This document shows positions 42,850-59,545 of a stretch of 64,000 nt of DNA, piece by piece. How positions within the stretch are numbered: position 1 is the first letter of the stretch; every line of letters begins with the position of its first letter. Below the pieces are notes generated by a model. It was not told the origin of the DNA. It saw only the letters and a program-made list of their open reading frames with translations, and ran no database searches. Made by a program: the position numbers and the translations under genes. This DNA comes from an uncultured Acidobacteriaceae bacterium (GTDB taxonomy: Bacteria; Acidobacteriota; Terriglobia; Terriglobales; Acidobacteriaceae). The stretch lies in assembly GCA_903849645.1 (NCBI GenBank), contig CAINJJ010000003.1, positions 62,001 through 126,000 of the forward strand, written 5' to 3'.

Positions 42850-42879
42850 AGAACAGCTTCAAGAGGTCAGGGAGATGAA

Positions 42880-43029
42880 CAGGCTGCGGAAAAAGGCCTG
42901 TCCTTGGGGAGGAAGCTTGAAAAGCACACCCCAGGGGCTGAAGCCCTCTTGATTTGATTAGCTTTATGGCACGACTGAAGTCGTGCCCTGACACTTCGTG
43001 CCTTCCCCATCGAGCTTTTCCGCAGCCTG
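42880..43029. mobile_element. MITE/REPIN-like palindromic element with 14-bp terminal inverted repeats
   Basis: The 150-bp unit is bounded by CAGGCTGCGGAAAA (42880-42893) and its exact reverse complement (43016-43029). Inside are two palindromes sharing a CTGAAG centre: GGGCTGAAGCCC (about 42935-42946) and GGCACGACT-GA-AGTCGTGCC (42968-42987). It encodes nothing. Flanking target duplications are not evident. Confidence 0.7.
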
Positions 43030-43211
43030 TATAGCTCTGTTGCTTATATGGTACTTGCGCCACGACTGAAGTCGTGCCCTGATGCTTCATGCCTTCCCCA
43101 TCGAGTCTTTCCGCAGCATGTTAAGCTCTATTGCTTATATGGTACTTACGCCACGACTGAAGTCGTGCCCTCCCCCATCGAGTTTTTCCGCATCCTGATA
43201 AAGCCCCCTGC
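42966..43211 (+). repeat. Three tandem ~91-bp partial copies of the element
   Basis: Copies begin at about 42966, 43060 and 43151, each with the CACGACT-GA-AGTCGTG palindrome followed by a CCCCATCGAG and TTTCCGCA segment. The third is truncated and diverged. The period includes about 30 bases beyond the right terminal repeat (GCTTATATGGTACTT). Confidence 0.8.
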
Positions 43212-54905: not shown

Positions 54906-57698
54906 ATGCCTGACACCGAATCTCTAACTCAAGCGCCCGTTCGTCGTAAGAAGTTTGTGCCTGGCCGCAAGCGCAAGGCTCTGCGGATTGTGCTGTGGAC
55001 CGTTGCCGGCCTGCTGGCCGCGGTGGTGGTGGCCGCGGGAGCGGGCGTGCTGTGGCTGCGCGCGGCGGCCAAGGCCGCGCTGCCGGTGCTGGACGGAGAA
55101 CTGCGCGTGGCGGGGCTGTCGGCCCCGGTGACCGTGCGGCGCGACGGGCACGGGGTGCCGCACATTGAGGCGGCAAGCCAGGAAGACCTGTGGGTGGCGC
55201 AGGGGTACGTGACGGCGCAGGACCGGCTGTGGCAGATGGACGCCTTCCGCCGCAACGCCAACGGGGAACTGGCGGAGGTGCTGGGCTCGTCGCTGATCAA
55301 GCACGACACGGCGCAGCGGGTGTTGCAGTTCCGGCTGACGGCGCGGCGCATCTATGCCAACCTCTCGGCGGTGGACCGGGCGCGGCTGGACGCCTATGCG
55401 CGCGGGGTCAACCTCTTTATCGCGCAACATGGGGATACGCTGCCGCCGGAGTTCAAGCTGCTGGGCTACCGGCCGCAGGCGTGGGCCGGGGTGGACTCGC
55501 TCTCCATCGGCATGATGATGGTGCAGATGCTGGACACGCACTGGGATGTGAAGCTGAGCCGGGAGCGGATTGCGGGGCTGTTGAACGACCCCAAGCTGGA
55601 GGCGGACCTGTATCCGGTGGGGTCGTGGCGGGACCATCCGCCGACCGGGGAACTGTTGGATCTGAGCCAGCCGCATCCGGAGTTGCAGCCGCCGAGCGCG
55701 GACGACGAGGAGGACGACCGGAGCCATGCGGGGCTGGAGCAGGCGCGGCCTTTGGACCGGTTGACCTCAGGGGCTGAAGCCCCCGGTTATTTTGGGCGGC
55801 TTGCGGCACGACTGAAGTCGTGCCCTGACACTTCGAGCCTTTCTTCGGCAGCCTGTGAGATTCCGGCTTCCCACGCCCAGGTGAGTGGGTCCAGTTATCA
55901 CGCCCAGGTGAGTGGGTCCAGTTATCACGCCCAGGGGAGTGGGTCCAGTTATCGCGCCCAGGTGAGTGGGTCCAGTTATCACGCCCAGCCTGAAGCTCAT
56001 GCTTACCAATCCAACCCTGGCGATGGGGCGGGAGTTTCGACCAGTGGCGAGGACACGGCGGCGCTGCGGGAGGCGATGGGATTGCCCGCCTGCGCGGGGT
56101 GCACGCCGGGGTCGAACAACTGGGTAATTGCGGGCAAGCACACGGCGAGCGGCAAGCCGCTGCTCTCAAACGATATGCACCTGGGGCTGACGGAGCCGAA
56201 TATCTGGTTCATGGCCGACCTGAGCGCGCCGGGGTATCACGCGGCGGGCGTGACGCTGCCGGGGATGCCGTTTGTGATTGCGGGGCACAACGAGCACGTG
56301 GCGTGGGGATTCACGGCGCTGTATGCGGATGTGCAGGACCTGTACATCGAGAAGCTGGACGGGAAGGGCAACTACGAGGGGAACGACGCGGCCTGGCATG
56401 CGCTGACGGTGGACCATGAGGTGATCAAGGTGCGCGGCGGCAAGGATGTGGTGCTGGAGGTGGAGAGCACCGACCACGGGCCGCTGCTGAATCCGCTGTT
56501 TACGAAGGAGAAGCGGGCGATTGCGCTGAAGTGGACGCTCTATGACACGACGCTGAACGCGCTGCCGCTCTGGGAGATGAATACAGCCGGCAACTGGGGG
56601 GAGTTTTCAGCGGCGCTGGGCAAGTGGTGCTGGCCGACGCAGAACGTGGTTTACTCCGACGACCAGGGGCATATTGGCTATCACGCGGTGGGCAAGGTGC
56701 CGACGCACCTGGGCGGACCGTGGGGCAAGCCTCTCTCTCGTGACGCGTTGAACGAGCACTACGAGGGGCAAGGCTACATTCCCTTTGACCAGATGCCGAA
56801 TGCATTTGATCCGCCGTCGGGGCTTCTGGCGACGGCCAACTCGCGGGTGACGACCGAAAAGTCGCCCTACCCGCTGGCTTTGGAGTGGGTTGAGCCGTAC
56901 CGGGCTGAGCGGATTTACAAGATGCTGCAAGGGCGGGACGGGCTGGGGCGGGCGGACATGCTGGCGGTGCAGACGGACGTTTACAGCGAGGTGGACCAGG
57001 AGCTGGGGCAGCGGTTTGCCTACGCCATTGACCACACGCCGGGAGTGGACGCGCGGCTGAAGAAGGCGGCGGACCTGATGCGGAGCTGGGATGGGAAGCT
57101 GACCGCGGACTCGGCCGCGGCGTCGATTGTGACCGAGACGCGGCGCGCGCTGTGGCCGCTGATTCTGGAGCCAAAGCTGGGCAAGGACGCCGGGGAGTAC
57201 CGCTGGTCGGAGTCGAACTTTGCCGAGGAAGAGATTGTGATGCACGCGAACGCGCAGTGGCTTCCCGCGGCCTACAAGAACTGGGACGCGCTGCTGACAG
57301 ACGCGGTGCGCAAGGCGATGGAGGCGGGCAAGGCGCCGACGGATGTGACCGGATGGGCCTATGGAAGCTGGCACGTGGTGGACATCGAGCATCCGCTGGC
57401 GGCGTTTTTGCCTGTAGTGGGCACAGTGGCCGGGACCGGCGCGCAGCCTCTGAGCGGCGACACGACGACGGTGAAGCAGGTGGGACGGGCCTTTGGGCCT
57501 TCGCAGCGGTTCACGATGGACTGGAGCGACGTGGACGGGTCGACGGAGAATATTGTGCTGGGCGAGAGCGGGAACCCGTATAGCGCGTATTTTCGCGATC
57601 AGTGGGACGCCTACTACGGCGGGACGACCTTTGCGCTTCCCTTTACGCCGGCGGCGGTGGGGGCGCAGACGCGGCATACGCTGCGTTTGGCGCCATGA
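54906..57698 (+). CDS. Penicillin acylase-family Ntn hydrolase with repeat-derived linker
   Basis: The 930-residue precursor has one N-terminal membrane helix (about residues 24-48), an alpha-subunit region (VPHIEAASQEDLWVAQGYVTAQDRLWQMD), a linker, and the beta subunit beginning at catalytic Ser403 (GSNNWVIAG). Maturation would cut before Ser403 and release the linker. Residues about 287-361 of that linker come from a palindromic repeat element plus a 27-bp minisatellite (four HAQVSGSSY-type units). The frame is intact. The family acts on amides such as acyl-homoserine lactones or beta-lactams; substrate unknown. GGGAG precedes the ATG. Confidence 0.9.
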   Translation: MPDTESLTQAPVRRKKFVPGRKRKALRIVLWTVAGLLAAVVVAAGAGVLWLRAAAKAALPVLDGELRVAGLSAPVTVRRDGHGVPHIEAASQEDLWVAQGYVTAQDRLWQMDAFRRNANGELAEVLGSSLIKHDTAQRVLQFRLTARRIYANLSAVDRARLDAYARGVNLFIAQHGDTLPPEFKLLGYRPQAWAGVDSLSIGMMMVQMLDTHWDVKLSRERIAGLLNDPKLEADLYPVGSWRDHPPTGELLDLSQPHPELQPPSADDEEDDRSHAGLEQARPLDRLTSGAEAPGYFGRLAARLKSCPDTSSLSSAACEIPASHAQVSGSSYHAQVSGSSYHAQGSGSSYRAQVSGSSYHAQPEAHAYQSNPGDGAGVSTSGEDTAALREAMGLPACAGCTPGSNNWVIAGKHTASGKPLLSNDMHLGLTEPNIWFMADLSAPGYHAAGVTLPGMPFVIAGHNEHVAWGFTALYADVQDLYIEKLDGKGNYEGNDAAWHALTVDHEVIKVRGGKDVVLEVESTDHGPLLNPLFTKEKRAIALKWTLYDTTLNALPLWEMNTAGNWGEFSAALGKWCWPTQNVVYSDDQGHIGYHAVGKVPTHLGGPWGKPLSRDALNEHYEGQGYIPFDQMPNAFDPPSGLLATANSRVTTEKSPYPLALEWVEPYRAERIYKMLQGRDGLGRADMLAVQTDVYSEVDQELGQRFAYAIDHTPGVDARLKKAADLMRSWDGKLTADSAAASIVTETRRALWPLILEPKLGKDAGEYRWSESNFAEEEIVMHANAQWLPAAYKNWDALLTDAVRKAMEAGKAPTDVTGWAYGSWHVVDIEHPLAAFLPVVGTVAGTGAQPLSGDTTTVKQVGRAFGPSQRFTMDWSDVDGSTENIVLGESGNPYSAYFRDQWDAYYGGTTFALPFTPAAVGAQTRHTLRLAP
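55766..55856 (+). repeat. REP-like element inside the acylase gene
   Basis: Two CTGAAG palindromes (GGGGCT-GA-AGCCCC at 55770-55783, GGCACGACT-GA-AGTCGTGCC at 55805-55824) are followed by a TGACACTTCG and CAGCCTGT end, matching the right half of the element at 42930-43030 in order and spacing. Confidence 0.8.
55872..55988 (+). repeat. 27-bp coding minisatellite in the acylase linker
   Basis: Four near-identical 27-bp units start at 55872, 55899, 55926 and 55953, followed by a nine-base partial unit. Each encodes a nine-residue unit like HAQVSGSSY. Units differ by one base at two positions. Confidence 0.92.
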
Positions 57699-59545
57699 AA
57701 AAACAGGGACGAGGGACGAGGGACGAGGGACCAGGAACCAGGGGCGAGGGACCAGGGACCTGGGGCTGGGGGAGATTTGTCGGCCCTGGATGGATTTTGC
57801 TGGCGGCGGCTGTGGCGACGGCTCCGCAGGTGCTGCGGGGGACTTCGTGCGGACACGACTTCGACTTTCACCTGGTTTCCTGGCTGGACTGTGTGCGGAG
57901 CTGGCGCGAGGGGATTGTCTACCCGCATTGGGCGTCGAGCCCGAACTTTGGGGCAGGCGAGCCGCGGTTTGTCTTCTATCCGCCGCTAACCTGGATGCTG
58001 GGCGCGGGGCTGGGGCTGGTGCTGCCGTGGACGGCGGTGGCGGGCGCGCTGACATTTTTGTTGCTGGCGGCTGCGGGACTGGCGACACGCGCTCTGGCGC
58101 GGCTGGCGCTGCCTGGGGGCGCTGCTACCGTGGCGGGGTGCGCGGCGCTCCTGTCGGGCTATGCGCTCTTCACGGCCTATGAGCGGTCGGCGTTTGGGGA
58201 GCTGGCGGGGGGCTTCTGGATTCCACTGCTGCTGCTGTTGATTTTGCGGGAGCGGGAGGCGGGGGCTTCGACGTGGCGACGCGCGCTGGACGGCTCCACG
58301 GCGCCGCTGGCGCTGGTGGTGGCGGGGGCGTGGCTCTCCAATGCGCCGCTGGGCGTGATGAGCTGCTACCTGCTGGCCGCGGTGGCCCTGGCGCTGGCGG
58401 CGGTGCGCCGCTCGTGGGCCCCGGTGGCGCGGGCTGCGATGGCGGCGGCTCTGGGGCTGGGCCTGGCGGCCGTCTACCTGGTTCCGGCGGCGGTGGAACA
58501 GAACTGGGTGAATATACGCCAGGCGGTGGATGACCCCGGAGAGCGGATCGAAAACAGTTGGCTGTTTGCGCGGCACCTCGACCTGTCGCTGGATTTGCAC
58601 GATGTAGAGCTGACGCGGGTGTCGGTGCTGGCGGTGAGCATGATTGCGCTGGCGCTGGGCGGGGGGCTGGTGGTGTGGCTGCGCGGGCGGCAGCAGGTAG
58701 AGACCCGGCGTGTGCCGCGGGGGTGGTGGTTGGTGATGGCGCTGATCCCTGCCACCGTGCTGGTGATGCAACTGCCGGTGTCGCTGGCGGTGTGGGATGC
58801 GCTGCCGCGGCTGCGGTTTTTGCAGTTTCCGTGGCGGTGGCTGGTGGCGGTGGAGGCCCCGCTGGGGATTGCTGTGGCGGCCGCTTTGGGGGAGCTCTGG
58901 CCGCTGCGGCGCTGGCTGCGGGTGGCGCTGGTGGTCGGCTGCGTGGCGGCGGGCATGGCGGCGCCGGCGGTGGCGGGGCTGCTTTTTTTTCAGGGCTGCG
59001 ATGAGGAAGACGCGGTATACCCGATGCTGCAGGTCTTTGAGTCGGGGCAGGGGTTTGAGGGAACCGACGAGTACGCCCCTCCGGGTGCGGACAACACGCT
59101 GGTGCCGGTTGGGTTGCCGGCGGCCTGCCTGGTGCGGGACCCGTTGACGAGGCTGGGAACAGGCCCGGAGAGCACCGCGCCGGAGTGGGAGCCGGGGCAG
59201 GGAAGCTGCGATGCGGTGTTTGGGGCCTATCCCAAGGTTTGGGCGGCGCGGCCGGAGCACCTGCGGATTGGGGCCACGACTGCGCATGCCGGGTACCTGG
59301 TCTTGCGGCTGCGAAGCTATCCGGCCTGGCGGGTGACGGTGAATGGAGCAGAGGTCACGGGGTTGCCCGTCCGGAAAGACGGCCTGATAGCCGTACCTGT
59401 GCCGCAGGGGATGGTGGACCTGCGGGCGGACTGGACGACGATGCCGGACGTGCTGGCGGGGCGCTGGGCGAGCGGATGGGCCCTGCTGCTGGGGACAGGA
59501 CTGTGGTGGGTGGAGCGGAGGCTGCTGCGGCCCGGTTTATCATGA
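57695..59545 (+). CDS. Large polytopic membrane protein of unknown function
   Basis: This 616-residue protein starts at an ATG that overlaps the acylase stop (ATGA). After a repeat-derived N-terminus (residues about 4-25) come roughly ten hydrophobic segments, a conserved-looking early loop (CGHDFDFHLVSW...HWASSPNFGAGEPRFVFYPPL) and a C-terminal extracytoplasmic domain (about 470-590). The early loop with acidic and aromatic residues resembles GT-C or YfhO-like glycosyltransferase membrane proteins, but this is tentative. It is followed six bases later by ispA. Confidence 0.72.
   Translation: MKKQGRGTRDEGPGTRGEGPGTWGWGRFVGPGWILLAAAVATAPQVLRGTSCGHDFDFHLVSWLDCVRSWREGIVYPHWASSPNFGAGEPRFVFYPPLTWMLGAGLGLVLPWTAVAGALTFLLLAAAGLATRALARLALPGGAATVAGCAALLSGYALFTAYERSAFGELAGGFWIPLLLLLILREREAGASTWRRALDGSTAPLALVVAGAWLSNAPLGVMSCYLLAAVALALAAVRRSWAPVARAAMAAALGLGLAAVYLVPAAVEQNWVNIRQAVDDPGERIENSWLFARHLDLSLDLHDVELTRVSVLAVSMIALALGGGLVVWLRGRQQVETRRVPRGWWLVMALIPATVLVMQLPVSLAVWDALPRLRFLQFPWRWLVAVEAPLGIAVAAALGELWPLRRWLRVALVVGCVAAGMAAPAVAGLLFFQGCDEEDAVYPMLQVFESGQGFEGTDEYAPPGADNTLVPVGLPAACLVRDPLTRLGTGPESTAPEWEPGQGSCDAVFGAYPKVWAARPEHLRIGATTAHAGYLVLRLRSYPAWRVTVNGAEVTGLPVRKDGLIAVPVPQGMVDLRADWTTMPDVLAGRWASGWALLLGTGLWWVERRLLRPGLS
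57706..57768 (+). repeat. Heptanucleotide tandem array translated at the start of the membrane protein
   Basis: Nine 7-bp units of the form GGGACGA (variants GGGACCA, GGAACCA, GGGGCGA, GGGACCT, GGGGCTG) run from 57706 to 57768. The total is 63 bases, so the frame is kept with nine copies. Other copy numbers not divisible by three would shift the frame. Confidence 0.85.

Follow-up and report, generated by a model that had tools for sequence, protein, structure and literature searches.

A probable RAYT-type palindromic element and a minisatellite in frame in the inter-subunit linker of an acidobacterial penicillin acylase

Rickettsia palindromic elements (RPEs) were reportedly described by Ogata et al. 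in 2000 and 2002, and we know of no transposase for them. According to PMC10969869, they are mobile palindromes that lie in frame in many unrelated genes, housekeeping genes included, and in this respect the element reported here resembles them. The settings differ, however: RPEs occur in reduced intracellular genomes, whereas the present carriers are free-living soil Acidobacteria that possess a REP-associated tyrosine transposase (RAYT) gene with flanking element copies, and in which one and the same linker has been hit repeatedly. The element works like an RPE but is not filed as one, the two being likened by behaviour.

A second parallel is offered by the intragenic REPs of RAYT/TIRYT systems (Di Nocera et al. 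2013, PMC3733652); the portion of that paper available to us describes RAYT palindromes inside dnaE2, tRNA synthetase and DNA-repair genes, as is the case here. The same portion records one instance of a shared site, in two recB genes, and makes no mention of coding insertions in Acidobacteria or in an acylase linker. In the present case, the linker and a loop of alaS are each occupied in several species. Third, REPINs (Bertels and Rainey 2011, PMC3116915) are inverted doublets for which mobilisation in trans by a RAYT has been proposed, and the linker inserts of three genomes discussed below (G027, G031 and G043) are such doublets. REPINs are, however, described as extragenic, and the copy in the window, by which we mean the whole 64,000-nucleotide stretch of DNA analysed, is a single unit in which inspection by eye revealed no tag of the GTAG type.

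The host gene brings in a further known system. Penicillin, cephalosporin and AHL acylases, with MacQ as an example (PMC5566955), have a spacer peptide between the alpha part and the nucleophilic serine which is cut during maturation. A difference from these known spacers is that, in some of the species, repeat DNA has enlarged the linker examined here; its processing is predicted. Our literature search found no published insertion in an acylase spacer. Thus, in-frame coding palindromes are already known, both in Rickettsia (PMC10969869) and as intragenic REPs (PMC3733652), while our searches found no description of the acidobacterial case, with at least two repeat families reusing one acylase linker and with occupied and empty sites in pairs, which we regard as new.

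It has been a long-standing question, since the Rickettsia elements, whether coding palindromes are carried along without harm or furnish material for new protein parts. The present finding places in-frame palindrome capture in free-living bacteria, where a likely transposase is identified and where the hosts include a named isolate genome, that of Terracidiphilus gabretensis, with an insert in alaS. It documents, in natural genomes, how mobile DNA turns into protein, and the occupied and empty linker and alaS sites allow expression, processing and stability to be compared in pairs with and without the insert.

The acylase and the insert in its linker

The open reading frame at 54906-57698 (+) encodes 930 residues and belongs to the Ntn-hydrolase penicillin acylases (S45). 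The Pfam profile PF01804 matches residues 74-918 with a score of 620.8 bits (E=6e-186), and the nearest solved structures among the PDB matches are the D-succinylase 7eby, cephalosporin acylases and penicillin acylases. A membrane helix is predicted at the N-terminus (residues 21-57). Ser403, numbered from the ATG at 54906 and encoded at 56112-56114 (+), pairs with the first residue of solved beta chains (4hst_B, 1gk9_B, 1ghd_B and others) and is accordingly the predicted nucleophile and beta-chain N-terminus. The Gly402-Ser403 pair is invariant across 46 aligned sequences, and autocleavage would take place between these two residues.

The AlphaFold2 model (mean pLDDT 76.8) is confident for the alpha helices up to residue 235 and for the beta part; pLDDT falls below 50 for residues 253-382 and 397-402, and no secondary structure is assigned up to residue 380. 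From the pLDDT profile and the alignment, the inter-subunit linker is delimited as residues 253-402 (55662-56111, +), of which 253-382 are predicted to be disordered, followed by a short helix at 381-391 and then by Gly402/Ser403.

Two repeats are read within this linker, and the frame stays open through all 930 codons, both repeats included. The first is the palindromic element at 55764-55869 (+), corresponding to residues 287-322 and recognised through BLASTN matches and an alignment of its copies as a twin hairpin with a tail. Its two perfect palindromes are GGGGCTGAAGCCCC at 55770-55783 (+), read from the sequence and conserved in the genomic copies, and GGCACGACTGAAGTCGTGCC at 55805-55824 (+), the 16-bp core of which has many exact copies, as detailed below. 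The second is a 27-bp minisatellite at 55872-55988 (+), residues 323-361, for which TRF reports 4.3 copies with 95% match; its unit, CACGCCCAGGTGAGTGGGTCCAGTTAT, encodes the peptide HAQVSGSSY in frame. Since the insert falls within residues 253-382, it enlarges a tether that is predicted to be disordered.

The earlier note on this DNA had placed both repeats in frame ahead of Ser403 and had pointed to the same repeat DNA as a non-coding element at 42.9 kb. Both statements agree with our analysis, the latter in the form of three tandem copies at 42928-43182 (+) with about 91 bp spacing, 3' of a gene whose end lies near 42850. The note had also derived about 75 residues of the linker from this 42.9-kb repeat DNA, which is true for only about 36 of them. 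The other 39 are minisatellite, the 27-bp unit of which has no second copy in its own genome and none elsewhere in the genus (79 genus genomes searched), and a derivation of all 75 residues from the 42.9-kb element is therefore ruled out.

A separate array of 7-bp units (GGGACCA/GGGACGA) lies at 57705-57766, directly 3' of the acylase stop codon. The following gene appears to carry it in frame at its N-terminus (MKKQGRGTRDEGPGTRGEG...), as a second repeat capture adjoining the acylase.

The repeat family, its transposase and captures in other genes

The element is not a one-off local repeat, a candidate that was ruled out, but a genome-wide family. The 16-mer CACGACTGAAGTCGTG has 41 exact copies in the 4.54-Mb genome to which the window belongs (G000), as opposed to none for the reversed control, and the whole element gives about 56 BLASTN matches in the same genome; together these counts establish a repeat far beyond chance. 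The aligned copies have a common layout, CAGGGGCTaAAGCCCC, about 20 nt, and CGGCACGACTGAAGTCGTGCCC, occurring singly or in tandem and often with the tail TGACACTTCG...TTTTTCCGCAGCCTGT. Among congeners, a genome contains between 0 and 63 copies of an exact 19-mer, a spread that is as expected for a mobile element. In one array (L066, G000:C30:68929-69463), at least six copies follow each other in tandem with about 92-bp spacing, which suggests expansion after insertion.

How the element might move is indicated by its neighbours. At three places, two copies in inverted orientation, at a distance of 534-560 bp, bracket a RAYT gene (L069 at G000:C36, L203 at G031:C5 and L221 at G031:C197), scoring 106, 105 and 115 bits, respectively, with NF047646, the cut-off of which is 80 bits. 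The family is also a high-copy, short and mostly extragenic palindrome, as RAYT palindromes are. Inspected by eye, the aligned copies show no GTAG or CGTC tag next to either of their hairpins; according to PMC3733652, acidobacterial repeats of the TIR type need not carry such a tag. The same paper defines REPtrons or TIRtrons by an inverted palindrome pair around a RAYT gene and names an acidobacterial transposase group with flanking inverted repeats. Because inverted pairs surround RAYT genes in three places, the element is best read as a RAYT-mobilised palindrome, and both the flanking position and the REPIN literature (PMC3116915) point to the RAYT as the enzyme that would move it.

Genes are largely avoided. 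In a census of copies found by search plus the stretches around them, exact copies inside genes number 4 of 37 in G000 and 5 of 33 in G009, a strong depletion (p <1e-17) calculated with an assumed coding density of 85%. The long open reading frames over the intergenic copies L087, L102, L103, L075 and L098 lack any Pfam match and were taken as spurious, and the LpxD case (L070), where the element lies upstream of the likely start codon, was not counted.

In-frame captures extend well past the acylase, and the idea that the linker is a unique acceptor of inserts is ruled out by their presence in housekeeping genes. In G000, the reading frames of alaS, argS and dnaE2, an error-prone polymerase gene, run through a copy of the element (non-alaS captures L082 and L093). 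In G009, codon-preference scoring followed by a family search identified it in ileS, mnmE (several units), cca, der and an iron-sulfur oxidoreductase (L166, L167, L179, L186 and L187). Other members of the genus have it in recN, an AddA/RecB-like helicase, rlmB, a RarA-like ATPase, tsaD, uvrC, a YdiJ-like dehydrogenase and further alaS genes; the remaining non-alaS captures in our list are L225, L226, L230, L240, L242 and L245. To our knowledge, none of these other proteins with captured inserts excises or discards a segment.

The captures in alaS share one loop in several species (L074 at G000:C23, L113 in T. gabretensis, which is G005, and L235, L239, L248 and L251). G000 and G005 have this loop occupied, but in G003 and G007 it is short and lacks the element. 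The insert of T. gabretensis encodes the peptide VTGHDFSRAESAPQK. Separately, the alaS loop of G013 (L114) contains a tandem repeat encoding SGELASSQ, and a related stretch is found in G011 (L121), from which it appears that minisatellites also grow in the tolerant alaS loop.

Two regularities were found among the captures. First, in the reverse orientation, seven of the eight non-acylase captures use the frame GHDFSRA, although each of the three reverse frames is open in 37-48% of the non-coding copies (frame bias p ~0.002). Second, translation (tRNA) and DNA-repair genes seem over-represented, a concentration that was noticed after the fact in a small sample and that echoes the tRNA synthetase and DNA-repair genes named in PMC3733652.

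Why the linker would tolerate the insert

We consider it highly probable that a RAYT-copied twin-hairpin palindrome, surviving in frame in a disordered linker, is the best explanation of the acylase insert. RAYTs, which are IS200/IS605-like HUH enzymes, would copy short twin-hairpin palindromes around acidobacterial genomes, and most insertions into coding sequence would be purged by selection. The survivors would be those with a length that is a multiple of three, free of stops in the host frame and situated within a loop or linker that is disordered. Such conditions are offered by the linker of the acylase, which is unconserved, predicted to be disordered and placed between the folded alpha part and Ser403, and which has been struck several times in related species. 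In the genome of the window, a hairpin unit would have been captured, and the in-frame 27-bp minisatellite would then have grown in this tolerant region. That disordered loops tolerate insertions accounts for every capture, and the inserted peptide would be neutral.

A more specific account is that the insert is tolerated precisely because autoproteolysis cuts out and discards the linker, such that the peptide is never part of the mature enzyme. This account is possible, if doubtful. The insert does sit before the invariant Gly402-Ser403 and, in the predicted structure, entirely inside the disordered linker, and PMC5566955 describes a family-wide two-step processing with spacer release. The same paper, however, reports for MacQ, an Ntn acylase, that spacer density is kept and visible in the mature structure and that a mutant which escapes cleavage still has activity. 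In the present protein, moreover, the position of the second cut is unpredictable, so the peptide could remain as a tail of the alpha chain. Above all, the element is also in frame in alaS, argS, ileS, dnaE2, mnmE, cca, der, uvrC, tsaD and others. Captures being common to tolerant loops and linkers, disposal of the linker is not needed to account for them.

Having raised the role of tolerance, we would add a more far-reaching proposal, which we think unlikely, namely that RAYT palindromes keep supplying Terracidiphilus and related Acidobacteria with new protein segments. Such segments would have preferred reading frames and be concentrated in translation and DNA-repair genes, and some of them, those of the acylase linker and the alaS loop, would be kept by selection as useful tethers.

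The linker in related genomes and the number of insertions

The acylase has an orthologue in 72 of 80 Terracidiphilus-group genomes, which include named members such as T. gabretensis as well as many acidobacterial MAGs. Measured automatically in 60 sequences from the motif P.GSWRD to the serine, the linker is 54-92 residues long without the element, as against 129-166 residues in five carriers. These five of the 72 genus orthologues are G000 (the window), G043, G027, G031 and G095; exact palindrome cores outside the linker were absent from the orthologous acylase ORFs scanned.

The five inserts are not alike. That of G000 is a single unit in the forward orientation and that of G095 a single unit in reverse, and G027, G031 and G043 carry inverted doubles with the shape of a REPIN. 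The tails differ as well, being TGACAC in G000, G043 and G095 and TTTCAA in G027 and G031, and so do the insertion points in the linker. In G010, the linker contains a 93-bp insert of an unrelated family, which has at least 40 matches in the G010 genome. Empty sites with uninterrupted sequence are found in sisters, namely in G024 for G031, in G014 for G043 and in G004 for G010. Outside the genus, twin-hairpin inserts with the same layout are present in the same linker in L289 (a Terriglobia bacterium) and L323 (Candidatus Sulfotelmatobacter). Repeated relatives of the L289 insert occur in each of these two genomes. The earlier note had argued that mobile repeat DNA was turned into coding sequence in the linker before Ser403, and had proposed an alignment of orthologues as the check. 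The orthologues bear this out: they do not all carry the same linker, most of them lack the insert, and occupied and empty sites alternate between sister species.

On a tree of 78 rows from which the linker columns had been removed, the insert requires four changes. The grouping of all five carriers as one clade is rejected (AU p=0.0002), and a clade of G000, G095, G027 and G031 is compatible with the data (AU p=0.21). In the larger, 78-row tree, G000 and G095 are sisters, yet their inserts have opposite orientations. We regard two insertion events within the genus as firm; four or five are more likely, based on the orientations, the different tails and element types, and the empty sister sites. 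The case for five strictly independent gains is weakened by the AU result, with which a common origin of four of the carriers is compatible. The copy in the window is single where those of G027, G031 and G043 are double, and it is possible that it represents an ancestral double that was partially deleted.

Could there have been a single ancestral insertion, retained in a few lineages and precisely lost in the others? Four of the five carriers do share one loosely supported region of the tree, consistent with the higher of the two AU values, and the sister relationship of G000 and G095 would fit. We consider this quite unlikely, however, given the rejected five-carrier clade, the opposite orientations in these same two sisters, the clean empty sites, and the two kinds of tail at unlike insertion points.

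It is very unlikely, in our view, that the inserts are functional, with mRNA hairpins or the peptide slowing translation or lengthening the alpha-beta tether and so tuning folding or autocleavage. The RNA of the window's element folds better than shuffles (z -2.9), one linker is hit recurrently, and a single frame dominates the reverse in-gene captures, all of which speak for such a role. Yet 67 of the 72 species do without the insert, the inserts vary in orientation, length and family, including the unrelated repeat in G010, and recurrence is also predicted by tolerance alone. An assembly or annotation artefact, that is, a repeat-driven misjoin or an untranslated region, is hardly credible: repeats often break draft assemblies, and several of the carrier and relative genomes are draft MAGs, but both flanks of the insert belong to the same acylase gene with its uninterrupted frame, and the same pattern is seen in independent assemblies.

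A few minor observations concern individual acylase loci. The contig of L257 (JARLGO010000408.1), labelled as a Geothrix sp. MAG, encodes an acylase 75% identical to the Terracidiphilus type and is probably mis-binned. In L050/L254 (G031:C163), the acylase match stops at residue 873 and the frame continues to 1471 codons, which suggests either a misassembly or a frameshift close to the C-terminus. Finally, two acylase linkers from outside the genus, L287 and L293, contain other repeat-like stretches (CTCGGGATGACAAGA and CCTTCGGGATGACACCGG), possibly captures of further repeat families.
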